This document shows positions 46,701-64,000 of a DNA stretch of 64,000 nucleotides, one piece after another. Origin of the DNA: Candidatus Desulfarcum epimagneticum. GTDB lineage: Bacteria; Desulfobacterota; Desulfobacteria; Desulfobacterales; CR-1. The translations under genes and the position numbers were made by a program. The notes under the pieces are model-generated. The model worked only from the letters and a program-made list of their open reading frames with translations. It was not told the origin of the DNA and did not search any database. How positions within the stretch are numbered: the stretch's first letter is position 1; each line of letters starts with the position of its first letter. The stretch lies in NCBI GenBank assembly GCA_900659855.1, contig CAACVI010000001.1, forward strand, positions 301,179-365,178. Direction: 5' to 3'.

Positions 46701-49700
46701 CCAGACCCGGCCGTCTCTTCCCGGGGCCATGGCCTTGAGCCGGGCGCGGGCGGGAACCTGTTTCATGGGCTCCGTCATATGCCACCACGCGTCCTGGCCC
46801 TCATGGTCTTTCATTCTGGCGTAAAGAGACCGGTCTTTCCAGGCGAACAAAAGCCCCCCGGGCCCTGTGCCGAAATCGTCGAACAGATACTGGGGAGGCG
46901 GCTCGTCTTCGGCCCCGGAGAAAATCGCCATGCCGATGAACCCGCCTGCGGGACCCCCCAACAGGAAGGCCGCGGCGCCCGACGCCAGAAGAATATCTCC
47001 TTCAAAAATTTCCAGAGCCTTTTTGTAATCCTTATTTCGAATGGCATCGTAAATATTTTGAGGATCAGAGACCGTCTTTCCCAAAATCGTTTCCCCTGCG
47101 CTTTTGAGGCCGCTGCCGACGCTTTTGAGGCCATCGCCAATAGAACTCCCAAACCCGGCCATATAAATCCGGCCCGGATAAGGGCCGGCAAGCGGAGCAT
47201 CCCCGCCCGGAAGATTTTGCGCCATAAATCTCACGGCGGACAGATCATCGCCCTCCACCGGCACATAGGCGCGGCTCACATGATGGAAACCCGCCTGATC
47301 CGAAAGACCCAGCGCCGCCAGACTGTAATAGGAATGCCCGAGCCTGTGCCTTTCCCGTGAAATAAAAGACCCCCCGCCGAATTTGACCCGGGTCTTGGTC
47401 GATTCAGGGTCGGCGATTTTGTTTGTGTTTCCCTGATCCATACCCAGCAGATGGGTTAAAAAATTCATGGATTTTTGGTTGAAACTCCAAATTTTTTCGC
47501 CGATCGCTTTTATTAACCCCGGGGGCTTTTGATTTTCGCATTCGTCTTTATACACGCATTCCCCGGGCCCGGCGTGAGTGAGGGTTAAAACCGTCTCAGG
47601 CGCCGGGGCCGCCATGGCGTCGCAGGACGCCCCGGCAAGGGACTCAAAACGCCCGCATCTCCAGCTCAAAGGGTATGCGTCATGGGACGCGTCCAGCCAT
47701 AAGCGCTCGGGATAGGGCGGGGCGCCCCATTCACGGGTCCCGTCCTCACGGGTGTGGAAGGCCGCCCCTTCACGGCACAAAGCCCCCCTGGCATAAATCG
47801 CGGACTGCCATTCGTGAACGCGCAGGTCGGGCATGCTGTCCAGGTATCCGCACGCGGGAGCGGGCGCGGCGATTTTGGCCGATTCCGGCACAATTTCGTC
47901 GTGAGCCGAAAACACGCCGGAGCTGTCCGGCTCCATGTTCACCCAAAGACTGCGGGAGCCGTCCAGAACCGCCAGACGTCTGCCGTCATGAGAAAGGCTG
48001 AAATCCGTGATCCCGCTTTCCGAGACCTGTGTCTTTTTCCATCGCAAAGGACCCTGATCCGTCCCTTTTAAATAAAGCGCGTAGTAAATATTGCCTCCCG
48101 AATCCGACGCGGCCAGGGACACATCCTCCCCAAAGGCGAAAATCTCAAACGCCACAGGCTCAAATGACCCGCCGCCCGGAATTGAGAAGTCATTTTCCAC
48201 TGTCTGCCAGGCGGAATGGCGTCCGGCGGAATAATAAAGCCGGTTTGCATGGTCCGCCGCCATAAGGGCGTCCCCGGAAAGGGCGAAAATCTCCCGGATA
48301 TTCGCCGGAAGCCCCGTCCTTTTTTCGGCATGCAGCCTCCAGTGATGGGGATGATACAGATCGTCATAGGAAAGGGAGGACGCGTCCCCGGGCGGGGCGA
48401 ACAGGTAAATGTCGCCGGCGTCATCCAGAAGCCACGTCATGGTGTCATAATAGTAATGTTTTCCAAAAACGATTTTGACTTCATGGGCGTTTGTGGACAT
48501 GGACCGGATATTTCGCCCCGGCGGCAGCCCCGCCCGTGTCAGCTCCATCCACGGGGAATCCTGCTTGCCGTTCGGATCGTCATGGCTGTGTTTTACCCAC
48601 AGCCGCGACCCTTTCCATCCAAAGCGTGTCATTCCTCTGGAGGCCGCGACACCGTCGAATCTCATGTCCTGACTCTCAAACCGAATCCTTCCCCCGGACA
48701 TGGCGTTTTTAACCTTAAAAAACATATCAGCGGCCGACGTTATGCTGTCGTCCACCACAAGCGACAGAAAGGCATGGCCCACCGGCGAGGATTCCATGGC
48801 ATCCAGGGTTTTCTCAATCTTCCAGGCGTGATCCACCCGATGATACCCCGGGTCCTCGATAAAATGGGTCCGCAAAGACTCCCGGCCGGATATCTTTCCA
48901 AACATCGGAGCCTTGCCCGCGTCCAGACCGACCAGCGGATAAAACGGCCGGGGACCCCGGCCCGGGGCCTCGGAAAAAACCGCGTCCCAGATATCAACTC
49001 TGGAAAGACTCAAAGATTCATGGGCCTTGAGCATGCCGGGCCAGGCGTTTTCAAACTCCCCGGGTCCGGTCTCCAGCGCCCGGGCCCTTCGCCTTGCCTC
49101 CGGAGTCTTCGGTTCGGCGGGCGTGTCCATGGAAGAGGTCCGGATGACGGCTGAAAGTTTTTTCACCTCCCCTCCCGTTTTGACATACAAATCCCCGCCG
49201 GGGCCCACGGCCACGCCCTCAAGCTCCAAAGGCGCGTCATAAGTCTTTTGAATGTCTTTTCCCTTCATCCAGTTGACGCATGACCATGACGCGTGGCCGT
49301 CTTTTATGGAATCCGCGATAAAATCTATCAGGCCCACGCCGATCTCCACCGCCGCCACAACCATCCAGGCTATGGGGTCCGCAAGAGCCGCCCCCGCCTC
49401 CGAGGCCTCTCCCGCCGCCTCCAGGTCCAGCGTCCCCGCCTCAACGGCTTCCCCCACGGTTTCAAATCCCGATTCCGACGCGATTTCCGACATTTCAGTT
49501 ATCTCCGTTCCGGAGGCTTCACAAAAATCCGAAGCGGTCCGGGTCCTTCCCGAAAATTCTGTTGTTATCCTGTGCCGCACGCCGCCGGGTCCCCTTTTCC
49601 AAAGACCATCACCCGGGGAGTTGGGATACGACGGGATTTCCGGGCTTATGCCCGGCTCGCCCTCAATCCCCTGGCCGGGCGGGGTGGAAGGCCTGGAGGG

Positions 49701-52700
49701 AGGGTTCGGAACGGGATCAGGCATACGGCTGCGCGTGGGGGGACGGTATTTATGAGCCTCGCGTCCTGCTCCTAATCCGGGAATAAGCCCCAGGCTCATC
49801 ACGGTCAGGCATTCGTTTCGGTTTTTAATAATATACTCACTTTCGGCCCCGGGGTCGCTTTGGGAAACGGTCTTTTTGCCCATGGAGGGCAGAATCAGCT
49901 TCCGGGGAGCGGCCCCCGGATCGTTCATATCCCACAGCCTTAAGTACGAATTCTTCAATTCGTTGACCAGAAAGGCGAAATACTTCCGGCCCCCCATGGA
50001 AAACGCCGTCGCGGCGCTCTCCTGCAGAATCACGCCCTGATCTCCCTCTTCTTCAAGCATGGGAATATTCAAAGCCAGGGGGCTTCCCCAGTCGGACCCG
50101 CCCGCGCTCTTTCGATACAGATGGTTGTCATAAATCCCGATCAGCTCGTCCCCGGCGGGAAAGGCCGTCACCTCCCGGGACCGGATGACATCCGGAACCC
50201 GGCGGGAAACCAGATCGTTGAACATTCGCGTGTGGGACGGGTCCGGCGGCTCAAAATTCGGGCTGTACCTGACGACCCTGTCCACCCTTTGAATATCCTG
50301 AATCACAACAGACAAATCCCCGGAAGCCGCCGATATGCTTCCGTTGACCACCGTCCCCCCGCCGGCGCTTCCCCGGATGGTGACGTTTCGGTTTGCCGTC
50401 ACGTTCCCGATGTCATGCGCGCCCGGCCCCAGCCGAATCACGCTCCCTTCCGGCGCCGCGTCTATGGCCGTTTGAAGCCAATGGCCGGCGTCGGGTTTCA
50501 AAGAAAAAATCAGGCCGCTTTCCCCGGCCATGGAGATGGCTGTCCGGGGATTGATTTTAAAGAAAAAACCGTCTATGACGCAGGTCTTGGCGGCCGGGCC
50601 CGTGTTGGCTCCAAGGGCCTTGATCGCTTCAATCTGATCTTCGGAAAACGGGGCGCTTTGCGCCGGCATTACCACGAATTTCACGCTTTGAATATGGCTG
50701 GGAATATAAAAATAAGGCCCCGGCTCAGGCGTGTGGGTCGCGCCCTGCTCCAAGACAATGATTCCTCCCGCGGGAGGCGCCAGCCACAGCGCCTGCTGAA
50801 GGTCCAAATGGCCCTGGCCTGTCTGCAAAACATCCTCAAAAGACGAAACCGCGCCCTGGTCATGCAAGGGATCATACCCGCGATCCATGTGGCGAATCTC
50901 CACCCCGGTCGGAACCCCGTCGCCATCATGGTCCATCCGATAGTCCGACGCCCGGGCGATCCGGACGGGATTTCCATCCACCAGTCTCACCTTCAGCCGG
51001 CCTTTTGAATTTTGACCGACCTTTAAATAATCCTCTGCGTTTCCAAAAAGAAACCCGTATAAATGGGGTGAAAAAGGAACGGGACCCAGAACATCGGAAA
51101 ACAATCTTTCATAACCGGTATCGGTTTTTCGATATATTTTGATGGTCGCCCGCCGGCTGTCATAATAGGAGGCATTGACAGTGTTTCCCCTGAAAAGCGT
51201 GACTCTGATCTCCTGGCCGGAACCAATCTCCCCAAGGCTCAATTCCCGTCCGGCGCCGTTTGCGTGATGGGTCAATTTCAACTCAATCCCGATTCCGCTT
51301 TTCACCCCGTATAAATCAATCCCGCCTCCTTTCAGGATATAACAGGCCGGGTCGGCGTCGTCGCCGTCGGATGAGGAGAACATGGAATCTTGCGATAAAT
51401 TGGAAAGCAGATGAATTTTTTCATAAGCGCCGGGAAGCTGAGTGAATTTAAATGTCATCCCCATGCCGAATCCAGTTTGATAGGGGCGCGGCGTCAGGCT
51501 GGAAATCTTATACGCCTCCAACTGCCCCGCGTCCCGTCCCATGGTCACAAAACCGTCCCCGTCCAGGAAACGGTCGGCTCTGCCTGTCCGCTCAAAAAAA
51601 TTCCGAACGCTTCCCGAGCCATCAAACGCGGTGAATTTTTTAAACCGCGTGTCCGTTGACGCGTCAATCCCCGCGATGACCGGGACAAATTCCAGGAAGT
51701 CTTCGTGAAGATCGCCCGGCGCGTCCCCGGCAGGCGGGCAGGAAGGCTGGGGCGTTTCAGCGGATTGGGTGGAAAACCTTCTGGCGTCGGGATGAGGAGG
51801 CGGTTGAGCGCAGCCTCCTTGAGGGAGAAGGGGGGTAAGTATTGGCAACCATTCCCAAACGGGCTGTCCGCCTGCAACCGCTGGAACAGGTTGAACGCCT
51901 GGGATATTCATCATATTAGCTGGGGGGTGTTGTCCGTTGAGCGGGTGGCCCTGAATAAGGACTGCTTGGTGATGCTCAGGATGCGGTTGTGCGGGCGCGG
52001 CTGGAGGCGCGACGGCGGTGGAGGGGGGAGGGGTTGTGGTATACACACCTTGAATCGTCCCCTGAAAGCCCCCATTCAGAAACTCTACCTCCGCATGGAC
52101 TGCGAGAGCGCCGGCCAGGATTATAACATTTTCAGGACTGGGCATCGTGAAGTACACGCCTTGTATAGGCTCTTGCTGTCCTATTATCACAACTCCGGCA
52201 AGATGAGCGTCACTGTCTTCCCCCGGCGGAGCCAGGTTTTGCATAATTATTGACAAATGAGGTTGAACGCCTTCAAAATGTGCGTTTGGATTATCCGGCA
52301 AATCGAAATCAACGCCACCAGAATCATTGGTTAATTGTTGGCTGTCAGCCAGATCATAAAGCGGTCCATGATAATTCTGGAATTCTGTTTCAGGGCCCCA
52401 AGGATCCAGCATATCAGCCCATTGTTCACCTTGGCCCGCCGCTTCCTGCGTCACCTCAACCGTCTCAACCGCCGCCGGCCCGGCGGGAAGCCACTGAACG
52501 CCCACGTTTTGCACAGCAGTCACCACCCACTGGTCAAGATGCATTCCAGCAGTCCCTTGCCCTTGCACATAATTTAATTGCACAGCGATAACGGCTTGAG
52601 GCCCCCCTCCCTGTGCAGCATGCGTCTCAATAAACAAAAGCGCTTGAGTATGGTCGTCCGTGAAAAAAATTTGTCCCCCCGCATTCAGATTTATAATCGT

Positions 52701-53684
52701 TTGGTGAGTAAGAGTTACCTCCTCTAAATGTTGAAAGCCTGTATATTCGTGACCGCCAAAAAAAAACGATGGCTGAAGAACCGCTGTGGGGTGATTATGA
52801 AAAAAATCGCCCGGGAAAACCGCTGCGCCCGCCAGGAGAGGAATTCCTGGCCCTGTCATCTCCATCAATCCATGAAGAACGCCCCAAAGAGTTCTATGAT
52901 TCCCATCATAATGAAGCATAAACCGCCTGGCATGAAAAGCCGGCGGAAGCTGAACGTGAAACTGGGCCGGGACCGCATGGCCTTGAGCGTTCTGAACAGG
53001 AGGATCAAGAGAACCTCCGGCATGATGCCCCACAGGATGATGGGCCGGCGCGGGTGCGGGGCCGGGATTTTCAGGGCGGGGAAAATCCCCCCCTCTGCGC
53101 CCTCCACCCTTTCCTCTTGGAGGGCCATACCAGCGAGGGGTTTGTCCTGGGTTCCCTCTTAGTTGAGTTGCGGGAGTATTTTCAAGCATCTTTAATGCCT
53201 TTTTTACTCGCTCTATGAAATGGAATACTGTGTTATAGTATTCCGAACCGTGGTAATATATTGGGCGCCCTTTAAGGACGTCTGAAATTCCCTTGTCTGC
53301 CAACATAACGCTAAAACCACCCGTCGGCTCCACTAGAATTTTATTCGCTTGCTGAAGAATATAAAGAAGTTGGTCTAAAATAGATATTAACTCATTTTGT
53401 TTTATCTTGCATTTTGAGCGACCCTTCTGTGCACTTGGGATGGTTATTACGCCCCCCGCTGGGCGAACCTCTCTTATCCGTTGAATCAATTTTTCAATTT
53501 CGGCGATCATTCTCTCAAGCTTTTCATGTCCCGCATAAACCTCAGGCGCGGAAAACCGGGGCGGATAAGTGACGGCCGAAAACGGCCCGGCGAGCAGCGC
53601 CGCTGAAATCACGATACAGATGATTTTTCTGATTTTTTTGATTGATCCGAACGTTTTTGGGTTATAAAAAAAAGTTTTTATCAC
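43785..53684 (-). CDS. Giant secreted mosaic protein (about 3,299 residues)
   Basis: A Sec signal (IICIVISAALLAGPFSAV) precedes a helical region (52-180). Residues 190-650 are His/Pro/Gly-rich with unusual composition. A concanavalin/LamG-like region spans about 665-905 (FKKFTAFDGSGSVRNF). Then come a Ca-binding loop DHDGDGVPTG (about 916), a pectate-lyase-like segment (about 1068-1120, IRLGPGAHDIGNVTANRNVT), a hydrophobic stretch (about 1431-1461), and two related propeller-like modules (about 1745-1941 and 2275-2580). Two FN3 domains (about 2588-2790) and four cadherin-like repeats ending in VNDPPSF / VNDAPSF (about 2790-3290) close the protein. There is no sortase or TM anchor at the C-terminus. 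GTG 53684 has AAGGAGA upstream. It is likely a surface or matrix adhesin; the target is unknown. One frame runs through all 9.9 kb without a stop. Confidence 0.85.
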   Translation of the reverse strand: MIKTFFYNPKTFGSIKKIRKIICIVISAALLAGPFSAVTYPPRFSAPEVYAGHEKLERMIAEIEKLIQRIREVRPAGGVITIPSAQKGRSKCKIKQNELISILDQLLYILQQANKILVEPTGGFSVMLADKGISDVLKGRPIYYHGSEYYNTVFHFIERVKKALKMLENTPATQLRGNPGQTPRWYGPPRGKGGGRRGGDFPRPENPGPAPAPAHHPVGHHAGGSLDPPVQNAQGHAVPAQFHVQLPPAFHARRFMLHYDGNHRTLWGVLHGLMEMTGPGIPLLAGAAVFPGDFFHNHPTAVLQPSFFFGGHEYTGFQHLEEVTLTHQTIINLNAGGQIFFTDDHTQALLFIETHAAQGGGPQAVIAVQLNYVQGQGTAGMHLDQWVVTAVQNVGVQWLPAGPAAVETVEVTQEAAGQGEQWADMLDPWGPETEFQNYHGPLYDLADSQQLTNDSGGVDFDLPDNPNAHFEGVQPHLSIIMQNLAPPGEDSDAHLAGVVIIGQQEPIQGVYFTMPSPENVIILAGALAVHAEVEFLNGGFQGTIQGVYTTTPPPSTAVAPPAAPAQPHPEHHQAVLIQGHPLNGQHPPANMMNIPGVQPVPAVAGGQPVWEWLPILTPLLPQGGCAQPPPHPDARRFSTQSAETPQPSCPPAGDAPGDLHEDFLEFVPVIAGIDASTDTRFKKFTAFDGSGSVRNFFERTGRADRFLDGDGFVTMGRDAGQLEAYKISSLTPRPYQTGFGMGMTFKFTQLPGAYEKIHLLSNLSQDSMFSSSDGDDADPACYILKGGGIDLYGVKSGIGIELKLTHHANGAGRELSLGEIGSGQEIRVTLFRGNTVNASYYDSRRATIKIYRKTDTGYERLFSDVLGPVPFSPHLYGFLFGNAEDYLKVGQNSKGRLKVRLVDGNPVRIARASDYRMDHDGDGVPTGVEIRHMDRGYDPLHDQGAVSSFEDVLQTGQGHLDLQQALWLAPPAGGIIVLEQGATHTPEPGPYFYIPSHIQSVKFVVMPAQSAPFSEDQIEAIKALGANTGPAAKTCVIDGFFFKINPRTAISMAGESGLIFSLKPDAGHWLQTAIDAAPEGSVIRLGPGAHDIGNVTANRNVTIRGSAGGGTVVNGSISAASGDLSVVIQDIQRVDRVVRYSPNFEPPDPSHTRMFNDLVSRRVPDVIRSREVTAFPAGDELIGIYDNHLYRKSAGGSDWGSPLALNIPMLEEEGDQGVILQESAATAFSMGGRKYFAFLVNELKNSYLRLWDMNDPGAAPRKLILPSMGKKTVSQSDPGAESEYIIKNRNECLTVMSLGLIPGLGAGREAHKYRPPTRSRMPDPVPNPPSRPSTPPGQGIEGEPGISPEIPSYPNSPGDGLWKRGPGGVRHRITTEFSGRTRTASDFCEASGTEITEMSEIASESGFETVGEAVEAGTLDLEAAGEASEAGAALADPIAWMVVAAVEIGVGLIDFIADSIKDGHASWSCVNWMKGKDIQKTYDAPLELEGVAVGPGGDLYVKTGGEVKKLSAVIRTSSMDTPAEPKTPEARRRARALETGPGEFENAWPGMLKAHESLSLSRVDIWDAVFSEAPGRGPRPFYPLVGLDAGKAPMFGKISGRESLRTHFIEDPGYHRVDHAWKIEKTLDAMESSPVGHAFLSLVVDDSITSAADMFFKVKNAMSGGRIRFESQDMRFDGVAASRGMTRFGWKGSRLWVKHSHDDPNGKQDSPWMELTRAGLPPGRNIRSMSTNAHEVKIVFGKHYYYDTMTWLLDDAGDIYLFAPPGDASSLSYDDLYHPHHWRLHAEKRTGLPANIREIFALSGDALMAADHANRLYYSAGRHSAWQTVENDFSIPGGGSFEPVAFEIFAFGEDVSLAASDSGGNIYYALYLKGTDQGPLRWKKTQVSESGITDFSLSHDGRRLAVLDGSRSLWVNMEPDSSGVFSAHDEIVPESAKIAAPAPACGYLDSMPDLRVHEWQSAIYARGALCREGAAFHTREDGTREWGAPPYPERLWLDASHDAYPLSWRCGRFESLAGASCDAMAAPAPETVLTLTHAGPGECVYKDECENQKPPGLIKAIGEKIWSFNQKSMNFLTHLLGMDQGNTNKIADPESTKTRVKFGGGSFISRERHRLGHSYYSLAALGLSDQAGFHHVSRAYVPVEGDDLSAVRFMAQNLPGGDAPLAGPYPGRIYMAGFGSSIGDGLKSVGSGLKSAGETILGKTVSDPQNIYDAIRNKDYKKALEIFEGDILLASGAAAFLLGGPAGGFIGMAIFSGAEDEPPPQYLFDDFGTGPGGLLFAWKDRSLYARMKDHEGQDAWWHMTEPMKQVPARARLKAMAPGRDGRVWALDTDGSLYRYGSSSSFKIPGMGLFGLNGKSSGDLFKKTMDSARAMGLIDSNVWSWTLRKDPRVNPSGAKIVDIFPLAGGAIIGVDEDRGLYYSGSSSEPWKKIHGNFGVYDGERIHPFAPSGFDLFYYDWGSDTFSGKAMLAASDSSGNLYCAAFSPDKDHLPLWHKIHSYASTGMSGFDFSDDGRRLAFIAKDGHVRLSSLPGVSWARFHEEFGERMPSDYLDHIIALYNHGGEGFRAGADRLREFLRSGPSSVPAPVPVEKLSGKTRKGSVKVSWRHSAGEPGSIFYHLQIARNASFVSDASGDVFDLFMKNASYSVKTGDDGALHARVRSMDIFGNASDFADLGSVVKDTTPPEKVKGLKAVPDKTPGSGTYNAISLSWSPISNKGKDFAKWRIYRKRSFGSGKIKNVAGLIPLAEIVSAERTSYVDASADAGEWYQHAVSAVDDLGNEDMSVFGAWPAYVNNAPSLPGSVPDFSPIPEDERDSAGDMVSRFLQGASDPEGDEIGMAVISAKSDGGRWEYRRPGGDWTAFVSAGETNARLLEPTAGIRFVPSADWNGTAQIAFRAWDQTKGRPGRTADVSENGEYHPYSAQSAPAVIQVRPVNDPPSFVRGPDLNIIEDSGAQVVEKWASEIAKGPKNESDQATAFVLTHDRETAPGAVPNFFHQAPVMDENGTLSYMLRPDANGVANVTVRLKDDGGRDHGGIDLDENEPPVRFTITARPVNDPPSFSAAEQSVDEDAGLQRVPLSGWAQDILPGPENEKDQTVQFTLVSTSSPGLFSTQPAISSDGVLSFAPAPDQNGQARVTVLAKDDGGVENGGADQSAPVTLGITVRSVNDAPSFSKGADIRVRQSAGRRVLRNWAKHISAGPADESGQRLRFEVKASRPSLFAVQPAISSGGTLTFTPRRNRSGKTSVTAVLKDGGGKDRNGEDQSAPARFNIRVLRVSRPGSDASNDAPAQPLLESPAAP

Positions 53685-54456: not shown

Positions 54457-56565
54457 TCAGACCATTTTTTCCGCCACAATCTCGGCGATGTCCCGGATTT
54501 GGATGTCGTCTTCTTTGCCCATTTCCTTCATGCCGTCTTCCAGCATGGTCATGCAGAAGGGGCAGGCCGCCGCCGCGTGATCGGCGCCTGAGGCCGCGAT
54601 TTCTTCGGCGCGCGCCAGGTTGATCCGCTTGCCGATGGACTCCTCCATCCACATCCTTGCCCCGCCGGCGCCGCAACAGAAGCTTTCTTTCCCATGCCGG
54701 GGAAGCTCCAGAAGCCCGTCTTGCGCCATGTCGCGCACAAGGGATCGCGGCGGCTCATAGACCGACTGGTAGCGGCCCAGGTAGCAGGGATCGTGGTAGG
54801 TCCAGGACCCTTCCAGGGAGCGCTCCAGCGAGATTCGGCCGGTTTTCGCCAGATCGTGGATGAGGCTGGAATGGTGGACGACCTCATAGCGTCCGCCCAG
54901 CTGGGGGTAGTCATGCTTCAAGGCGTTGAGGCAGTGGGGGCATGCCGTGACGATTTTTTTCACGTTGTAGCGGCTCAATGTCTCGATGTTTTCCAGCGCC
55001 ATCATTTGAAACAGCATTTCATTTCCGGCCCGCCGGGCGAAGTCCCCTGCGCATTTTTCCTCGGCCCCCAAAATGGCGAAGGAGACCCCGGCTTTTTTGA
55101 GAACCCGGGCCAGGGCCGCCGAAATTTTTTTGCTTCGGTCGTCAAAGGACCCGGCGCAACCCACCCAGAACAGATACTCCACATCGGAATTTTCGGCCAT
55201 GGTGGGAATGTCCAGCCCCTCGGCCCAGTCGGCGCGCTTGTCATAGCCGATGCCCCAGGGATTGCCGTTTCGCTCCAGCCCCTTCAAAGCCGCGTTCAGC
55301 TCGCTGGGATAGGCTTCCGCCATGAGTGTCTGTCCCTGCCGCATGGCGATGATACGGGGGACCTGCTCAATGGCCGCGGGGCACACCTCCTCGCAGGCCC
55401 GGCAGGTCACGCAGGCCCACAGGGTGTCCGGGGAAATCACGTCCCCGACCAGGCTTTTTTCGCTGTTCAGCCCGGCCAGGCGGGCTTTGATTTCCTCGGC
55501 CTTTTCAGGATCGCTTTGGGAGTCAAGGAGCCCGGAGAGCTTTGAGCGCTCGATGATCGGGTCCGCCCGCCTGAAAAGCTCATGTTTCAACTGATCGTTG
55601 AAGTCGTGGAGATTCAGGGGCTTTTCCGTGACATGGGCCGGGCAGACCTCCTTGCACCGGCCGCACTCGGCGCAGGTGTAAAGGTCCAGACCCTGCTTCC
55701 AGGAAAGCTGATGAATGTGGTTGAGGCCCAAAGTTTCGTTTTCCCAGGCGTCCTCGTCCTCCAGGTCCAGGAGCTGGGGCTTTTCATGGGGATATCCCAG
55801 GCTTTTGAAAAACACGTTGGGCAAAGCCGTGATGACATGAAAATGTTTGCCGTAGGGCAGGAAATTAAGAAAAAGAAGCTGGACGGCGATGTGGGACCAG
55901 AACATGGAGACCATCAGCGCCTCCAGGGCGCCGGGGGGAAGTTTGGAAACAAGCGCCGCGGCGGCCGCCGAGACCGGGGTCCAGGCGAATTCGGCGCCGT
56001 ATGCCGGGTGGCTGAAAAAGTGAAGGTCCCCGGGATTCTGGTGAAGCGTGATCAGGTTCTGGCGGGCGCCGTCGTACAAAAGATCCGAGACCATCAAAAC
56101 CGCGATCATGACCAGGACAAGATAGGCCTCCCAGGTGTTGTGGAGCCGCTCGGGCTTTAAGACCGCGCGGCGGAAAAGGGCCAGGAAAACCATCAGGAGA
56201 ACGGCGGCCTCCATGATGTCTTTTAAAGCGAGATACACATACCCCGCCAGGGAGTCATGGCCCAGAAGCGGAAGCTCAAAGCCCTTGACGAACCCCTCCC
56301 CGTATAAATTCACGCTTCGGATCAAAAGGATACAAAATCCCCAGAAGATCAGGGCGTGCATGACGCCCGCCATGCGCTCCTTTTTCCGGCCCGCCAGGCG
56401 TTTCTGGCCGATGGCCATGACCAGGACGTTTTTAAGCCGCCGGCCGATTTGGCCGGTCCGCTCAGCGGGCCCCAGGGCCTTGAGCAGCAGCGTTTTTCGA
56501 AACATGGACCAGGCGAAAACGCCCAGTCCGGCCGCCAGAAGAAGAGACATGAGAAGGGGATTCAT
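54457..56565 (-). CDS. EtfAB:quinone oxidoreductase (membrane Fe-S, CCG type)
   Basis: A 702-residue membrane protein. The N-terminal half has NarI-like TM helices with likely heme ligands (LLLIRSVNLYGEGFVKGFEL, then FWSHIAVQLLFLNFLPYGKH). Two [4Fe-4S] motifs follow (CAECGRCKEVCP, CVTCRACEEVCP), then two CCG domains (WVGCAGSFDDRSKK, and CYLGRYQ with CCGAGGARMWMEE). This is the membrane oxidoreductase that passes electrons between EtfAB and menaquinone in many acyl-CoA-oxidising anaerobes. It is directly downstream of etfA. Confidence 0.9.
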   Translation of the reverse strand: MNPLLMSLLLAAGLGVFAWSMFRKTLLLKALGPAERTGQIGRRLKNVLVMAIGQKRLAGRKKERMAGVMHALIFWGFCILLIRSVNLYGEGFVKGFELPLLGHDSLAGYVYLALKDIMEAAVLLMVFLALFRRAVLKPERLHNTWEAYLVLVMIAVLMVSDLLYDGARQNLITLHQNPGDLHFFSHPAYGAEFAWTPVSAAAAALVSKLPPGALEALMVSMFWSHIAVQLLFLNFLPYGKHFHVITALPNVFFKSLGYPHEKPQLLDLEDEDAWENETLGLNHIHQLSWKQGLDLYTCAECGRCKEVCPAHVTEKPLNLHDFNDQLKHELFRRADPIIERSKLSGLLDSQSDPEKAEEIKARLAGLNSEKSLVGDVISPDTLWACVTCRACEEVCPAAIEQVPRIIAMRQGQTLMAEAYPSELNAALKGLERNGNPWGIGYDKRADWAEGLDIPTMAENSDVEYLFWVGCAGSFDDRSKKISAALARVLKKAGVSFAILGAEEKCAGDFARRAGNEMLFQMMALENIETLSRYNVKKIVTACPHCLNALKHDYPQLGGRYEVVHHSSLIHDLAKTGRISLERSLEGSWTYHDPCYLGRYQSVYEPPRSLVRDMAQDGLLELPRHGKESFCCGAGGARMWMEESIGKRINLARAEEIAASGADHAAAACPFCMTMLEDGMKEMGKEDDIQIRDIAEIVAEKMV

Positions 56566-56581
56566 GGGTCCGTCCCTTAAC

Positions 56582-57541
56582 TTAATTTCTGTGTTTTTTG
56601 ATTTCTTCCCTCAAAATCGGGACCACCTCGAAAAGGTCGCCGACAATGCCGTAGTCCGCCACGTTGAAAATGGGCGCCTCGGGGTCTTTGTTCACGGCCA
56701 GGATCACCTTGGAGCCGTTCATGCCCGCCAGATGCTGGATGGCCCCGGAGATGCCCACGGCCACGTACAGGGTGGGCGCCACGATTTTGCCGGTCTGGCC
56801 CACCTGTTTGTTGTGGCCCATAAATCCCGCGTCGATCATGGCCCGGGAGGCGCCGAAGCCCGCGTTGAGGTCGTCGGCCAGACCCTTGACCAGATCCACC
56901 CCGGCCTGGTCTTTGGCCCCCCGGCCCACCGACACCACGATGTCGGCGTCGGCCAGATCAATGTCGCCTTCGGCGTCGGATATCAGGCCCTTGATGGCGG
57001 CCTTTAAATCCGGCTCCGGCGCGGAAAGCGGGACCACGTTCTCAGTCCCTGAGATTCCCTCGTCCGCCTCAAAGGCGCCGGCCCTGACCACGGCCACGAG
57101 TTTTTCAGCGTTGATCTGAACGCGCTGGGTCACTTTGTTGGTGATGGCCGGGCGAATGATCTCCACGCGGTCTTTTGAGAGGTCGATGTCCGTGATTTCC
57201 GTGGCGCACGCGGCGTCCAGGCGGGCCGCCACCCGGGGCGCCATGGCTTTTCCGCTTTCGGAAAAGGGGAACCAGATGAGGTCGGCCTCAAACTGTCCGG
57301 CCGCGTCCGCCACGCAGGAGGCGTAGGGTCCCGCTGAAAACACCTCCAGGGACGGATCGTCGGCGATATATTGAACGTCGGAGCCGGCCTTTGCCAGCTC
57401 CGGGGCCAGGGATTTCACGCCGGCGCCGATGGCCACAATGGCGGTTTCGGCGCCGATGGACCGGGCTTTGGATAACAGTTCGGCGGCGCTGCCCTTGAGC
57501 GCGCCTTTTTTGATGTCTGCGACGATAAGCGCTTTAGCCAT
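56582..57541 (-). CDS. etfA: Electron transfer flavoprotein, alpha subunit
   Basis: A 319-residue FAD-binding subunit. The C-terminal FAD domain has VSVGRGAKDQAGVDLVKGLA, GFMGHNKQVGQTGKIVAPTL, YVAVGISGAIQHLAGM and VNKDPEAPIFNVADYGIVGD. No N-terminal ferredoxin extension, so it is the ordinary type. It lies between etfB and the quinone oxidoreductase. Confidence 0.97.
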   Translation of the reverse strand: MAKALIVADIKKGALKGSAAELLSKARSIGAETAIVAIGAGVKSLAPELAKAGSDVQYIADDPSLEVFSAGPYASCVADAAGQFEADLIWFPFSESGKAMAPRVAARLDAACATEITDIDLSKDRVEIIRPAITNKVTQRVQINAEKLVAVVRAGAFEADEGISGTENVVPLSAPEPDLKAAIKGLISDAEGDIDLADADIVVSVGRGAKDQAGVDLVKGLADDLNAGFGASRAMIDAGFMGHNKQVGQTGKIVAPTLYVAVGISGAIQHLAGMNGSKVILAVNKDPEAPIFNVADYGIVGDLFEVVPILREEIKKHRN

Positions 57542-57605
57542 GATGATTTTTCCTCATATATATAAATAGTAGGGTATAAACGGGATTGACGGACGCGGGC
57601 TTTTT

Positions 57606-58388
57606 TTAAAGGGCCTTTGCCTCGTTGACCAGAAGGTCCACCACCCGGGCCGTGATTTCGGCGGCGTCGCCCTCGAATTTCTGCCCGGCCTTTCGGGTCT
57701 CGGACGCCATGAACTCCAGAACCTCGGATCTGGGCGCGCCGGCCCCCACTTCCCCGGCCGATGTCCCCAGCGCCGCCAGGTCCATGGTCTCAATGGGCTT
57801 TTTCTTGGCCATCATGACGCCCCGCATCTGGGGCAGCCGGGGCTCGTTGATGCTGACGTCCACCGCGATCACGGCGGGCGTCGTCACCTCCAGCTCCTCG
57901 GTTCCGGCGTCTCCGGAACGGGAGATTTTGAGGCGGCCCTCATCCAGAGCCTCGACGCCGATGACGTTGCTGACGCACGGAAGCCCCAGGATTTCGGCCA
58001 GGAAAATCCCGGTCTGGCCGTTGTCCGTGTCCTGGGCCTGTTTGCCCGTGATAATGAGATCATAATCCCCGGCCTCAAAGACCCTGGCGATGACCCGGGC
58101 GAAGGTGAAGGAGTCGGCGCGTTCCAGGGCCGGGTCCTCGATATGAATTCCCTTCTCCATTCCCATGGCGTAACACCGGCGGATGACCTCGGCGTTGTCC
58201 CCGCCGCCCACGCTCACCAGGGTGGTTTGGGCGCCGTTGTTTTCTTTAAGCCGGATGGACTCCTCCACCGCGCTTTCGTCCCAGGCGTTGGTCACATACT
58301 GAAGCCCGTCCTCCACCAGCGCCCCGTCCTTGACGCGCATGTTCAGCTCCACATCCACCACTTTTTTGACTGTCGTGAGAATTTTCAA
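57606..58388 (-). CDS. etfB: Electron transfer flavoprotein, beta subunit
   Basis: A 260-residue subunit. WDESAVEESIRLKENNG, DLIITGKQAQDTDNGQTGIF and GLPCVSNVIG are typical, with AKKKPIETMDL near the C-terminus. The bifurcating-type FAD-binding signature was not examined in detail. With etfA it accepts electrons from acyl-CoA dehydrogenases. Confidence 0.97.
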   Translation of the reverse strand: MKILTTVKKVVDVELNMRVKDGALVEDGLQYVTNAWDESAVEESIRLKENNGAQTTLVSVGGGDNAEVIRRCYAMGMEKGIHIEDPALERADSFTFARVIARVFEAGDYDLIITGKQAQDTDNGQTGIFLAEILGLPCVSNVIGVEALDEGRLKISRSGDAGTEELEVTTPAVIAVDVSINEPRLPQMRGVMMAKKKPIETMDLAALGTSAGEVGAGAPRSEVLEFMASETRKAGQKFEGDAAEITARVVDLLVNEAKAL

Positions 58389-58464: not shown

Positions 58465-59277
58465 TTATTTGATGGTCACACGCTCCCGCCCGCACACAAT
58501 GACAAGCCCGGAGCGTTTCGGGGAAAAGGCCAGGGTCATGCCCAGATCCCGCCCCAGATCGGCGGCCAGCGCCGTGGGCCTGGATTTGCTGACGATCAGG
58601 GGAATCCTGGCCCGGGCCGCCTTCTGGACCATCTCATAGCTGATCCGGGAAGACAGGGCGAGCGCCCGCGCCCGGTCCAGTTTTCGGCCCATGAGCGCTT
58701 TTCCCACGGCCTTGTCCAGGGCGTTGTGCCGGCCCGCGTCCTCGGCGAAGGACAGCATGTCCAGACGCCGGTCAAAGAGCGCCGCGGCGTGGGAGCCCCG
58801 GGTCCGGGGGTACCAGGTCTGGCTGGCGTAAAGTTTTTCGACACAGTCAAACAGCCGGGCGCTGTCCGTCTTAAAGCCGGTTTCGGCGGGGGCCAGCTCC
58901 TGCTTTAAGTCTTCCAGCATCTCTTTGCCGCAGATTCCGCAGCTGGTCTGGCTGACAAAGCCCCTTCTTTTAAGAACCCGGGCGATTTTTTCCCGCCGCA
59001 GGGGTTTGACGCGGACCTCAACCACGTTGGGGTCCAGGTCCGGGCAATGCCCCACTGATGCGAAATCATCCGGGGAGTCCGCGATCCCCTCGGCCAGGCA
59101 GAAGCCCGCCGCGTGAAACAACTCTTCCCCGGGGGTTCTCATCACCACCGAGTAGGGCTCGCCCTCCACGCGGATCAAGAGGGGCTCTTCGTTGATCAGC
59201 TCCAGGGAATCTTCCCGGGCCCCCTCCCCGCCGCATCTTAAAACCGGGTAAAATTCCGTTTGACGACCGGATTTCAA
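58465..59277 (-). CDS. fdhD: Formate dehydrogenase accessory sulfurtransferase
   Basis: A 270-residue protein that transfers sulfur to the Mo/W-bis-PGD cofactor of formate dehydrogenase. Features: NEEPLLIRVEGEPYSVVMRT, GFCLAEGIADSPDDF, the active Cys in FVSQTSCGICGKEML, and AEDAGRHNALDKAVGKALMG. The start is TTG 59277 with GGAG about 10 bases before it. It lies between etfB and the ferredoxin-like gene, apart from the fdhA operon at 29 kb, which it presumably serves. Confidence 0.9.
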   Translation of the reverse strand: MKSGRQTEFYPVLRCGGEGAREDSLELINEEPLLIRVEGEPYSVVMRTPGEELFHAAGFCLAEGIADSPDDFASVGHCPDLDPNVVEVRVKPLRREKIARVLKRRGFVSQTSCGICGKEMLEDLKQELAPAETGFKTDSARLFDCVEKLYASQTWYPRTRGSHAAALFDRRLDMLSFAEDAGRHNALDKAVGKALMGRKLDRARALALSSRISYEMVQKAARARIPLIVSKSRPTALAADLGRDLGMTLAFSPKRSGLVIVCGRERVTIK

Positions 59278-59329: not shown

Positions 59330-59950
59330 TCATGGTCCGTTCTCCCCGGCGGCGCCGGCAGAGGACGGGGGAAACGCAATGGCTTCGGTCAAAGCGAAAA
59401 CCGCCTGGAGATAGGATGTGGGGCACAGCGGAAAACATTCTTTGCAGTCCCGGCACTCCACAGAGGCGACTTCCGGGATAAAGCTGATTTCTTTCCCGGC
59501 TCCCCGGCCGATAAATCCCACCGCGTTTTTTTGCTTGATTTCCGCGCAGTATCGGACGCATAAGCCGCAATGAACGCAAAATGAGGCCTCTTTTTCAAAA
59601 CGGTCCGGGGCCGCGTGATATTCTTCGGCCATTTCCCGCAATTCCGGAGAGTCCGGGGCGTGGGCCAGCAAAAGCTCCAGAATGGTTTTGCGAATCCGGT
59701 CGATCCTGGCGGACCGGGTTTTCACCGACAAATTTTCCTCCACCGTGTAAACGCAGGACACCACGAGTCTGGAGCGGTCGCCCGTCCCCGCTTCCACGAT
59801 GCAGAGCCGGCAGCCGCCAAACGGTTCCAGTTTTTCGTGATGGCAGAGTGTGGGAATGTGTATTCCCGCGTTTTTCGCCGCCTCCAGAATGGTCATCCCT
59901 TCCTTTGCCGCGACTTTTTTTCCGTCAATGTCTAAAAGGATTTCACTCAT
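59330..59950 (-). CDS. NuoG-N-like [2Fe-2S]/[4Fe-4S] electron-transfer protein
   Basis: A 206-residue protein equal to the Fe-S front part of NuoG/FdhA without the molybdopterin domain. [2Fe-2S] ligands: CHHEKLEPFGGCRLC, then SCVYTVEEN. [4Fe-4S] ligands: CVHCGLCVRYC and CRDCKECFPLCP. It overlaps the 3' end of the NuoF-like gene by 8 bases. It probably passes electrons from the flavin subunit to an as yet unseen partner. Confidence 0.88.
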   Translation of the reverse strand: MSEILLDIDGKKVAAKEGMTILEAAKNAGIHIPTLCHHEKLEPFGGCRLCIVEAGTGDRSRLVVSCVYTVEENLSVKTRSARIDRIRKTILELLLAHAPDSPELREMAEEYHAAPDRFEKEASFCVHCGLCVRYCAEIKQKNAVGFIGRGAGKEISFIPEVASVECRDCKECFPLCPTSYLQAVFALTEAIAFPPSSAGAAGENGP

Positions 59951-61865
59951 TTTTCCCGCTCTTTTTTTTTATGGCTCTTTTCTCTTCAGGCACAGGGGGA
60001 GGCGGCGGCTCGCCGGAAATTTTCCCCACGGCGCCGAAGCGGGAGGGGCAAACTTCAAAGCAGGCGCCGCATTGGACGCATTTTTCCTGGTCGATGATAT
60101 GGATTTTTCTTTTTCCCCCGTCAATGGCGTCCGCCGGGCATTTTTTCAGGCACATCATGCAGGCCGCGCATTTTTCCGGATCGATGTGATACGCGATGAG
60201 CGCCTTGCAGGACAGGGCCGGGCATCGTTTGTCTTGAATGTGCGCCTCGTACTCATCCCTGAAATGGCGCAGGGCGCTCAGGAAGGGGTTGGGCGCGCTG
60301 CCCCCCAAAGCGCACAGGGACGCCTCCTTGGCGGTTTCGGACAGCTCTTCCAGAAGCTCGATGTCGCCTTGTTTTCCCTTTCCCTCGGTGATGCGGGTGA
60401 GTATCCGGAGCATCTGCCTCAAGCCCTCGCGGCACGGGACGCATTTCCCGCAGGATTCATCGGTGAGAAATTCGATGAAATAACGGGCCACATCCACCAT
60501 GCAGGTGTCTTCGTCCATGATGATCATTCCGCCTGATCCCATCATGGAGCCGGCCTGGGCGAGTTCGTCAAACCCCACCGGCAGATCCAGCAGATCTTCG
60601 GGAATGCATCCTCCGGAGGGTCCCCCGGTCTGCGCCGCTTTGAATTTTTTTCCCCCGGGAATGCCCCCGCCTATCTTGAAGATAATGTCTCGCAAGGTCA
60701 TGCCCATGGGGACTTCCACCAGGCCGGTGTTGGTGATTTTTCCCACCAGGGAGAAAATTTTGGTTCCTTTGCTTCCCTCCGTCCCGAACTGGGTGAACCA
60801 GTCCGCCCCTTTACTGATGATCAAAGGCACGTTGGCCCAGGTCTCCACATTGTTCAGCACGCTGGGTTTTTCCCAAAGGCCCTTGATGTTGGAGCGGATA
60901 TACTTGGGCCTTGGCTCTCCCGCCCGGCCTTCCAGGGCCGTCATCAGGGCGGTGGACTCCCCGCAGACAAAGGCGCCGGCGCCCTGGTGGACGAGCGCCT
61001 TGAAATCAAATCCCGACCCCAGGATATTTTCGCCCAGCAGACCATACGCCTCGGCCTGGCGAATGGCCAGGTTGATATTCTCCACCGCCAGGGGGTATTC
61101 CTGGCGCACATAAATATACCCCTCCCGCGCGCCGATGGCGTAGGCGCCGATGATCAGCCCTTCCAGGATGGAGTGGGGATTTCCCTCCAGAAGGCTTCGG
61201 TCCATATAGGCCCCGGGGTCGCCCTCGTCCGCGTTGACGATGACATATTTGATGTCGGCGGGGGCGTTTCGGGTTCCCTCCCATTTTCTCCCCGCCGGGA
61301 AGCCGCCGCCGCCCCTGCCCCGCAGGTTGGACTTTTTAATTTCCTCCAAAACGCTTTCAGGGCTCATTTCGGAAAAAACTTTGGCCAGGGCGCCGTAGCC
61401 GCCGATGGCCAGGTAGTCGTCGAGGCTTTTGGGATCAATGGCCCCGTTGGATCCGAAAACCAGGCGCGTCTGGCCTTTGTAGAAGGGGATTTCGGATTCA
61501 TGAACGATTTTTTCGCCGGATTCCGGGTCGGTGTACAAAAGCCGGTCTATGATTTTCTTTTGCTTGACGGTCTCGGAGATAATCTCGGGGATATCGCCGG
61601 GCTTGACCTGGAAATAACATATTTCCCCGGGATGGATCACGACAATGGGGCCCCTTTCGCAAAAGCCGTGGCAGCCCGTTCTCCTGACATCCGCGTCCAC
61701 GCCCTGCTTTTGAATCTCCTCTTTGAGGCTTTCGGCCACTTCGTCGCTTCCGGTGGCATGGCAGGCCGATCCGGAGCAAAGCGAGATGACGGTCCTGTTC
61801 GGGTCTCTTTTGGACACAAGGCCCTTTCTGAATTGATCCAGCTCCGCTGGTGAATTTATCCGCAT
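59943..61865 (-). CDS. NuoF-like NAD(H)/FMN subunit (second set)
   Basis: A 640-residue paralogue of the protein at 29531. It has an N-terminal thioredoxin-like [2Fe-2S] (CSGSACHATGSDEV, GCHGFCERGP), the FMN/NADH site (LRGRGGGGFPAGRKWE, VNADEGDPGAYMDR, GAGAFVCGESTAL), ESCGKCVPCREG, and a C-terminal double [4Fe-4S] (CAACMMCLKKCP, CVQCGACFEVCP). ATG 61865 has AAGGTG before it; GTG 61868 is an alternative. It follows the NuoE-like gene by 9 bases. Confidence 0.92.
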   Translation of the reverse strand: MRINSPAELDQFRKGLVSKRDPNRTVISLCSGSACHATGSDEVAESLKEEIQKQGVDADVRRTGCHGFCERGPIVVIHPGEICYFQVKPGDIPEIISETVKQKKIIDRLLYTDPESGEKIVHESEIPFYKGQTRLVFGSNGAIDPKSLDDYLAIGGYGALAKVFSEMSPESVLEEIKKSNLRGRGGGGFPAGRKWEGTRNAPADIKYVIVNADEGDPGAYMDRSLLEGNPHSILEGLIIGAYAIGAREGYIYVRQEYPLAVENINLAIRQAEAYGLLGENILGSGFDFKALVHQGAGAFVCGESTALMTALEGRAGEPRPKYIRSNIKGLWEKPSVLNNVETWANVPLIISKGADWFTQFGTEGSKGTKIFSLVGKITNTGLVEVPMGMTLRDIIFKIGGGIPGGKKFKAAQTGGPSGGCIPEDLLDLPVGFDELAQAGSMMGSGGMIIMDEDTCMVDVARYFIEFLTDESCGKCVPCREGLRQMLRILTRITEGKGKQGDIELLEELSETAKEASLCALGGSAPNPFLSALRHFRDEYEAHIQDKRCPALSCKALIAYHIDPEKCAACMMCLKKCPADAIDGGKRKIHIIDQEKCVQCGACFEVCPSRFGAVGKISGEPPPPPVPEEKRAIKKKSGKNE

Positions 61866-61874
61866 CACATCACC

Positions 61875-62333
61875 TTACTCATAATTTTTCAGCACGTCCG
61901 CCGTTTGGCCCGGCGCCACCTTGCCGTGGGTTTTTCCGTTGATTTCCACCACCGGCCCCAGGGCGCAGCAGCCCAGGCAGTTAACCGTGTCCAGGCTGAA
62001 CTTTAAATCCGGGTCGGTTTCGCCGGGTTTGATCCCGATCTGGTCCTGAATCGCGTCCAGCGCCCGCCCCGCGCCCCGGACATGGCAGGCGGTGCCCATG
62101 CAGATGTGAATCTCATGGCGGCCCTTGGGAACCAGGCTGAAGGCTTTGTAAAAGGTGGCGATATGCTGGACCCGTGTCAAAGGGACGTCCAGTTTTTCCC
62201 CCACCCTTTCAAGGGCCTCTTTGGGAAGCCAGCGGTTTTCGCTTTGAATGTCCAGCAGTATCTGAATCAGCGAGCTGGGCAGGCTTTCATGCCTGTCAAT
62301 AATTTCATCGATTTTTTCCATATCCATAGACAT
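61875..62333 (-). CDS. NuoE-like [2Fe-2S] subunit (second set)
   Basis: A protein of about 152 residues. Cluster cysteines in CMGTACHVRGAG and CLGCCALGP. The start is one of several clustered ATGs; ATG 62333 follows AGGATG. The long frame reaching 62417 would overlap mvhD and is not used. Confidence 0.9.
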   Translation of the reverse strand: MSMDMEKIDEIIDRHESLPSSLIQILLDIQSENRWLPKEALERVGEKLDVPLTRVQHIATFYKAFSLVPKGRHEIHICMGTACHVRGAGRALDAIQDQIGIKPGETDPDLKFSLDTVNCLGCCALGPVVEINGKTHGKVAPGQTADVLKNYE

Positions 62334-62355: not shown

Positions 62356-63135
62356 TCATTCCGCGCCCCGGGCCAGGGCGTAGCGCCTGGCGTCCACATC
62401 GTATCGGACCCATCCATGCCTGGATGAGGCGTTCATGCGGCTGGACACCTCGGAGGGGCTGATGCCCAGGCCCTTTGAGATTTCCCCGGCGGAAAGGGGC
62501 GATTCTTTTAAAAGCCGCGTTATCTGGCCGATGGCCAGTTTGTCGGCGATCAGCTCATCAAAGAGCCGGAGCCACTCTTCGCTGTTCAGGAAGGACTCAT
62601 AGGCCTCTTGTGATTTGACCGATGGTTTCAGCCTCCGGTTTTCCGCCAGTTTCATGTAGGGGACCAGCTGCCTGGCGGCCTCGATTTTGGGCCGCCATCG
62701 CTTTTCGTCCTCCTCCCCGCCCGTTCCGATGGGCCCCATCTCCTTGACCTGGTTTGTGAAATCGTCAATGAGCCGGGTCAGAAGAATGCCGTCTCCGCCG
62801 GACATGAATTCGATGCGGAGACGCTCCGGGGACAGGCCGACGCGCGTCATGATTTCCCGGCACAGGCGCGCGGCGCTCAGCGCGTCGTAATTGCCATGGG
62901 TGACATAGTTGCACTCATCCAGCCGGCATCCGCCGATAAACACGCCGTCCTGGCCGTTGGAAAAGGCCCTGAGAATAAACTCCAGGTCCACCCTTCCGGA
63001 GCACATCACACGAATGAGCCTGATTTTATTTGTATATTGAAGTCTGGAAACTCCAGCCATGTCCGCGGCGCCGTACGCTCACCAGTGACAGACAAATCCC
63101 AGAACTTTCGGTTTAAACTCCGCGTCCGCGCTCAT
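62356..63135 (-). CDS. mvhD: Selenocysteine MvhD-like hydrogenase/Hdr iron-sulfur subunit
   Basis: A 259-residue protein read from ATG 63135, which has AGGAGG 9 bases upstream, through TGA 63081-63079 as selenocysteine 19 (LGFVCHW-U-AYGAADMAGVSR). The family normally has Cys there (CxWC). Downstream are VMCSGRVDLEFILRAFSNGQ and GGCRLDECNYVTHGNYDA, typical MvhD. The C-terminal third (from about 185) is an added winged-helix-like segment (LSAGEISKGLGISPSEVSSR). Ordinary callers would start at Met 27, losing the cluster ligands. MvhD carries electrons between a NAD(H) or hydrogenase module and HdrA. Confidence 0.9.
63044..63081 (-). promoter_or_regulatory. UGA selenocysteine codon of mvhD with candidate SECIS
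   Basis: The in-frame UGA (63081-63079) is followed 22 bases later on the minus strand by CTGGA-GTT-TCCAG (63056-63044), a short stem with G at the loop start. The spacing suits a bacterial SECIS, but the stem is short and less convincing than that of fdhA. Confidence 0.65.
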
Positions 63136-63153
63136 TGATTCCATCCTCCTTTT

Positions 63154-64000
63154 TCAGCGGCCCGCCGGGTCTTCAATGGCCGCGTCGATTTGACTCAAAA
63201 GCTCCTGATCGGTAAAATGCTTCAGCACAATGGCGCTGGTCGGGCATTTGGCGTTGCAAAGGCCGTCTCCTTTGCACAAAATGGGGTTCACCCGGGCCTT
63301 TTTGCCCTTTGGGGTGTCCGCAAAGTCGATGGCCCCGTAGGAGCAGACATCCACGCAGGCCCCGCACGACACGCAGTCGTTTTCCCTGACCTCGCAGACC
63401 GCGCCCGAGGCGGTGACGGTGTCGCCGGACAAAAGGGTCAAAACCCGGCCGGCGGCGCCGTAGGCCTGGCTGACGGCCTCGGACAGGTGTTTGGGATAGT
63501 GGGCCATTCCGCACAGGTACACGCCGTCGGCGGCGAACTCCACCGGCTTTAATTTGACATGGGCCTCTTTGAAAAAATCGTCCGGGCTCAGCGCCGCCTT
63601 GAACAGCCCCGCCATTTCCCCGATGTCGTCGGGAGGCAAAACGGCGGCTGCCAGGGCCAGGCAGTCGGCGTCTATTTCAAGCCGCTGGCCCAAAACGGGA
63701 TCGGCGACCGTTATCCGCACCATGTCTTTGCCCCCTTCCGTCACGGCCTCCGCCGTCGGCCTGTCCGCCGGGTCCCATCGGATGAACCGGACATGTTTGT
63801 CTGACGCCTCGCGGTAATAGTCCTCCCTCAGACCATAGGTTCTCATATCCCTGAAAAGGATGTGGATGTCCATATCGGGGTTGATTTTTTTGAGTTTGAG
63901 CGCGTTTTTAACGGCGTGGGAGCAGCAGATCCGGCTGCAGTAGCCCCGGTCTTCGTTCCGGCATCCCACGCACTGGATCATGACCAGGGTTTCGGCCCGG
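63154..64000 (-). CDS. hdrA: HdrA-like flavoprotein, 5' part beyond the right edge
   Basis: The C-terminal 282 residues visible. The frame continues past base 64000 (RAETLVMIQCVGC). HdrA features: IQCVGCRNEDRGYCSRICC, FRDMRTYGLREDYYREA, GVYLCGMAHYPKHLSEAVSQ, and the double [4Fe-4S] (CVSCGACVDVCS, CKGDGLCNAKCP). It lies 18 bases upstream of mvhD, so the two are co-transcribed. HdrA is the flavin centre where electron bifurcation takes place in Hdr complexes. Confidence 0.92.
   Translation of the reverse strand, partial: RAETLVMIQCVGCRNEDRGYCSRICCSHAVKNALKLKKINPDMDIHILFRDMRTYGLREDYYREASDKHVRFIRWDPADRPTAEAVTEGGKDMVRITVADPVLGQRLEIDADCLALAAAVLPPDDIGEMAGLFKAALSPDDFFKEAHVKLKPVEFAADGVYLCGMAHYPKHLSEAVSQAYGAAGRVLTLLSGDTVTASGAVCEVRENDCVSCGACVDVCSYGAIDFADTPKGKKARVNPILCKGDGLCNAKCPTSAIVLKHFTDQELLSQIDAAIEDPAGR

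Follow-up and report, generated by a model that had tools for sequence, protein, structure and literature searches.

Class II benzoyl-CoA reductase is the tungsten complex with which anaerobic bacteria break benzene rings, and the complex isolated from Geobacter reportedly contains selenocysteine (Sec). Bam is a bifurcating complex, in which part of the electrons of ferredoxin are thought to go to the tungsten cofactor, at about -650 mV, and the others to NAD+ or menaquinone (PMC12096430). One of its subunits, encoded in G. metallireducens by Gmet_2083 (bamF), is described as a hydrogenase delta subunit with a helix-turn-helix (HTH) (PMC1924859). In Desulfococcus multivorans the selenoprotein genes include mvhD, hdrA and bamE, BamE being a published Sec protein (PMC5109826). 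The MvhD/VhuD family (PF02662) is itself a listed selenoprotein family with the motif CxxU (PMC13188914), and the [2Fe-2S] cluster of MvhD lies close to the bifurcating FAD (PMC12350162, PMC6019823).

The gene described here lies on the minus strand of a 64,000-nucleotide stretch of DNA from Candidatus Desulfarcum epimagneticum, called the window below (Table 1). From sequence comparison, we consider it very probable that this gene is bamF, that a hairpin inside it directs Sec to residue 19 of the product, and that the product relays electrons through a [2Fe-2S] cluster between BamE and BamGHI. Geobacter BamF (Gmet_2083) occupies the same operon place after bamE and has the same MvhD plus HTH architecture. 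The Geobacter and Geomonas loci that we found carry Sec19 and the same hairpin, and the proteins retrieved are about 50% identical to the window protein; however, their BamE has Cys, whereas that of the window locus has Sec. The sulfate reducer D. multivorans resembles this genome in combining a Sec-BamE in its Bam complex with a Sec-MvhD, and its published list of Sec genes names bamE but not bamF (PMC5109826). With the methanogen MvhD/VhuD proteins, BamF has in common the domain, the CxxC/CxxU site, the HdrA neighbourhood and the fold. On the other hand, the archaeal SECIS is found in the UTR (PMC11227280), whereas that of bamF lies inside the gene, and the solved MvhD chains (129-141 residues) are devoid of the C-terminal HTH domain present in BamF. 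Four paralogues of the same genome (L001, L003, L004 and L005) share with bamF the domain, the Sec and an adjoining HdrA, and are 35-40% identical to BamF over the MvhD domain; two of them, L003 and L005, do not have the bamF hairpin.

Table 1. Features of the bamF locus and its surroundings in the window.
Feature	Positions	Strand	Remarks
bamF	62356..63135	-	259 aa, Sec at residue 19
Ribosome-binding site AGGAGG and start ATG (63135-63133)	63133..63150	-	
In-frame TGA, Sec19 in C16-H-W-U19	63079..63081	-	codon 19
Putative bacterial SECIS stem-loop CUGGA-GUU-UCCAG	63044..63056	-	inside bamF coding sequence
BamF protein domains			FlpD/MvhD domain at residues 11-134, then helical linker, then winged-helix-like C-terminal domain at about 204-246
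bamE (HdrA-like), C-terminal part	63154..64000	-	HdrA2 780 bits; runs on beyond the window
bamG (NuoE-like, thioredoxin-type [2Fe-2S])	61875..62324	-	PF01257 E 1.6e-49; start approximate
bamH (NuoF-like NADH/FMN subunit, C-terminal 2x[4Fe-4S])	59943..61868	-	
bamI (NuoG N-terminal-like, [2Fe-2S] and [4Fe-4S])	59330..59950	-	
fdhD (sulfurtransferase for bis-MPT enzymes)	58465..59277	-	adjoins bamI; TIGR00129 153 bits, above cut-off
etfB, etfA, EtfD-like membrane Fe-S oxidoreductase	54457..58388	-	

A single minus-strand frame, 63135..62356, translates as MSADAEFKPKVLGFVCHW-TGA-AYGAADMAGVSRLQY..., with the sequence after the in-frame TGA opening with AYGAADMAG, and is terminated by the TGA at 62358-62356. 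Standard ORF calling begins at the first ATG past the in-frame TGA (63060, Met26 of the long frame). The earlier note had proposed a hidden upstream start for this MvhD-like gene, and we indeed find the ATG at 63135 preceded by AGGAGG at a spacing of 9 nt and followed by conserved coding sequence before the TGA. The product matches the whole PF02662 (FlpD/MvhD) profile (positions 1-123 of 123, E 1.7e-43, 147.9 bits for a cut-off of 22.3) and stays below the NCBIfam cut-off for VhuD proper (NF045873, 118.6 bits vs 215); as judged from these profiles, BamF is homologous to VhuD but other than VhuD itself. Its C-terminal part gives a weak winged-helix match (HTH_5, E 9.6e-5). The AlphaFold model has a pLDDT of 83, and its N-domain aligns with the solved MvhD chains 5odh_D, 5odc_D and 8rvu_F with TM scores of 0.90-0.93 (target-normalised). 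All candidate positions of a putative [2Fe-2S] cluster are present (C16/U19/C45/C70/C75), and the TGA aligns with the second cysteine of CxxC in the MvhD of 5odc, 8rvu and 7bkb; the earlier note had placed it at a cluster Cys of the family.

Of 48 FlpD proteins (8 from this genome and 40 from its phylum), 46 have Cys or Sec at site 19. A non-Cys residue at this site in homologues had been named beforehand as an argument against Sec; it is found in only two proteins, divergent fused paralogues of the same genome which have D or S. Within the same sample, Sec stands at site 19 in 12 proteins, at site 70 in 13 and at both in none, and no double Sec19 and Sec70 protein appeared among the other bacterial homologues fetched either. 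Of the MvhD copies of this genome, three carry their Sec at site 19, in the motif CxxU, and two carry it at site 70, in G-U-xx-G-(E/D)-C-H-Y. From these alignments we conclude that bacterial MvhD paralogues carry Sec at 19 or at 70, never at both, which is a new point. The paralogues L001 (C1:449491-449859) and L004 (C50:12427-12795) have it at site 70 and not at 19. The solved MvhD homologue 9sfi_K, the delta subunit of an F420-non-reducing hydrogenase, differs from the window BamF and its Sec at 19 alone in that non-standard residues (X) occupy precisely these two sites, 19 and 70, and some archaeal FrhD/VhuD contain more than one Sec (PMC13188914).

Does Sec19 ligate the [2Fe-2S] cluster directly? 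This is possible but rather doubtful. Residue 19 is among the five conserved Cys positions, and position 70, another of the five, is also Sec in paralogues. However, four ligands suffice for a [2Fe-2S] cluster, and residues 16, 45, 70 and 75 are Cys or Sec in all 48 proteins, including the two divergent paralogues in which residue 19 is D or S. This weak evidence favours Sec19 being a neighbour of the cluster and not one of its ligands.

The identity of the gene comes from its surroundings. The gene upstream of bamF is cut by the end of the window and, past this edge, HdrA-like, HdrD-like and ferredoxin-like genes are found in the same direction, together with a gene for a 676-residue AOR-family protein. 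Against BamB of G. metallireducens (4z3w) the latter scores 1273 bits in an alignment of 653 residues, whereas the next AOR reaches 232. The order is bamB-C-D-E-F-G-H-I, then fdhD, etfB, etfA and an EtfD-like gene; bamB to bamI with fdhD and etfB after it is also the order in two relatives (L101 and L107). The ring hydrolase BamA is encoded elsewhere in the genome (TIGR03200, 543 bits for a cut-off of 464). Because BamB lies upstream, the bamB-to-bamI order is kept, BamA is present and the described Gmet_2083 product is likewise a delta-type subunit with an HTH, the assignment to bamF, a subunit of class II benzoyl-CoA reductase, is supported at the sequence level, and is sharper than the generic MvhD reading. 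It is improbable that the gene is instead part of a generic Hdr/Mvh-type complex or of an aldehyde-oxidoreductase one. Such an origin could be argued from the MvhD domain, common to many Hdr clusters, and from the BamB of some relatives' operons, which are only 47-57% alike and possibly serve other substrates, but it is opposed by the full-length BamB match, five times the next AOR, by the eight bam genes all standing in order and by BamA.

Several other features of these loci deserve mention. As a general member of the bam operon fdhD has to be rejected, since of 45 loci only 6 have it in the 3 kb that follow bamI. Here, and likewise in six related bam loci, it comes directly after bamI, and its product might serve the tungsten cofactor that BamB carries. 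The etfB, etfA and EtfD-like genes probably encode the quinone-side partner of the pathway, by analogy with bamOP/ETF in other Bam clusters (PMC5109826, PMC1924859). In a second BamF architecture (L079, L080, L083, L089, L094, L097 and others), a ferredoxin-like 2x[4Fe-4S] domain similar to the BamH C-terminus takes the place of the HTH-like C-terminal part. All-Cys BamF proteins are encoded in L172, L173, L174, L180, L185, L189 and L190, mostly with BamB/BamE homologues, on contigs of MAGs labelled Beta- and Alphaproteobacteria (labels as given); going by these contig labels, a Bam-type complex may exist outside strict anaerobes. Further along the window, a single 3299-aa ORF (43785-53684, minus strand), towards whose C-terminus Big_9 and cadherin-like domains are found, probably encodes a large surface or secreted protein.

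Codon 19 is TGA in 108 of the 108 Sec-type related genes compared. A search of 291 genomes found TGA within the frame in nearly all close relatives, and a scan of a species-genome collection yielded a further 80 named loci, which belong to Desulfobacterota, Geobacteraceae, Bacillota, Actinomycetota and other groups. Residues 7-18, N-terminal of the TGA, show 81% amino-acid identity between the window protein and the 108 homologues, and synonymous codon differences are twice as frequent there as non-synonymous ones. A genome without Sec insertion genes had also been foreseen as an objection; here tRNA-Sec (76 bits), selB, selA and selD are all found, each above its cut-off. Since all 108 relatives share the TGA and the SECIS hairpin is conserved, this codon is not there by chance, and we conclude, on comparative evidence, that it is decoded as selenocysteine. 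The selenoprotein proposed in the earlier note thus stands; as to its rank as the second one, the first in the window is probably FdhA, and the TGA of the adjoining bamE falls just outside.

It is very unlikely that translation really stops at this TGA, or that the codon is an artefact of sequencing or of a pseudogene, with the working protein beginning at Met26. An annotated-style ORF does open at 63060, but a start there would cost the FlpD fold its first strand and its CxxC, and a stop is hard to reconcile with the same TGA in 108 relatives, the conserved residues 7-18, the synonymous sites frozen by the hairpin 3' of the TGA and the Sec machinery of the genome. A genome-wide reassignment of UGA to an amino acid, which in-frame TGAs in 5 of the 8 FlpD copies of this genome might suggest, can be dismissed, as bamE, bamF and many neighbour genes terminate in TGA, the in-frame TGAs of FlpD, HdrA, FdhA and SelD sit at sites or in families already known for Sec, and the canonical Sec genes are present. 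Two of these other cases can be detailed. At 32461 on the plus strand of the window, an in-frame TGA in CARL-U-HAP has 347 open codons before it and 545 after, and the gene is probably that of the formate dehydrogenase alpha subunit, FdhA. The selD gene (C12:51993-52922) has one in-frame TGA, so that selenophosphate synthetase is probably a selenoprotein itself.

A SECIS had been anticipated on the minus strand after 63079, and the hairpin found there is frozen in Sec genes only. It begins 23 nt 3' of the UGA, with the G of its apical loop 28 nt after the UGA. Codons 27-31 read GCU GGA GUU UCC AGA in 49 to 51 of 51 related Sec genes, and their mean codon entropy is 0.12 bit, compared with 1.24 bit at other conserved residues of the Sec genes; 100000 random draws of conserved residues gave no set with a codon entropy as low. 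At the same five positions the Cys homologues show 1.6-2.4 bits. In counts drawn from related sequences, which are not independent events, and with the adjoining codons of these genes as the control, the outer four pairs are formed in 85 of 89 distinct Sec sequences vs 2 of 40 Cys sequences, and synonymous differences per codon amount to 0.06 within the hairpin vs 0.35-0.42 elsewhere. Some variants keep the pairing, with U-A replaced by G-C at pair 24-34 and A-U by G-U at 27-31. Compared with synonymous shuffles, the 45 nt that follow the UGA do not fold with a lower overall energy (mean z +0.96), and the evidence for a SECIS therefore lies in the short hairpin; an Rfam search at the locus found no element. 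One relative with Cys19 and Sec70 (L091, G177:C20:12975-14076) keeps the exact Sec19 hairpin, GCT GGA GTT TCC AGA, possibly as a relic of, or a step towards, a switch in Sec position.

The in-frame TGA of bamE lies in NDCSM-U-ILSPKLVEVG. The codons after it, CUG GUC GAG GUC GGC, are frozen across 39 Sec genes, while 28 Cys genes show no such freezing; a candidate SECIS fold there has a 7-bp stem and a 4-nt loop. Among 55 HdrA-MvhD pairs, the partner of HdrA-Sec is a Sec-MvhD in all 30 cases, whereas HdrA-Cys is paired with Sec19-MvhD in 12 and with Cys-MvhD in 13. As far as these pairs tell, Sec is found in BamE/HdrA only where the partner MvhD has Sec, again a new point. In a tree of 146 sequences, in which a few deep rows are long branches of uncertain placement, 102 Sec19 sequences from several phyla form a single clade (100/95) that contains no Cys row. 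One could imagine a general rule, in which bifurcating MvhD/HdrA-type complexes of bacteria take Sec at 19 or 70, with a further Sec nested in HdrA, and in which the Sec19 of Bam, gained together with its hairpin, stays unreverted across phyla and would be functionally necessary in this form of the enzyme, but in this full form the idea is tentative and somewhat unlikely.

How could BamF work? SelB and tRNA-Sec would decode the UGA at codon 19, directed by the stem-loop within the coding sequence. The MvhD-type domain most likely carries a [2Fe-2S] cluster adjoining the bifurcating flavin of the HdrA-like BamE. By extension from the MvhD/HdrA structures and the Bam model, BamF would pass electrons between this flavin and BamGHI, the NAD(H) module, with BamE driving others down to the tungsten centre in BamB. 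Sec19, in the CxxU of the cluster site, presumably speeds electron transfer or shifts the potential. The altered potential in a bifurcation branch put forward in the earlier note would fit such a complex.

In conclusion, bamF belongs to a known Sec family, and what is modestly new is the hairpin frozen across phyla, the either-or choice of Sec sites and the nesting of Sec in HdrA/MvhD pairs. Ordinary gene finding would cut BamF 25 residues short and lose its CxxU, and probably does likewise in many anaerobe genomes. CUGGA-GUU-UCCAG offers a short, testable SECIS, and the natural Cys/Cys, Cys/Sec and Sec/Sec series of HdrA-/MvhD-type pairs a probe for the role of Sec near a bifurcating flavin. 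Correct annotation of bamF ties selenium supply to the anaerobic degradation of aromatic compounds.
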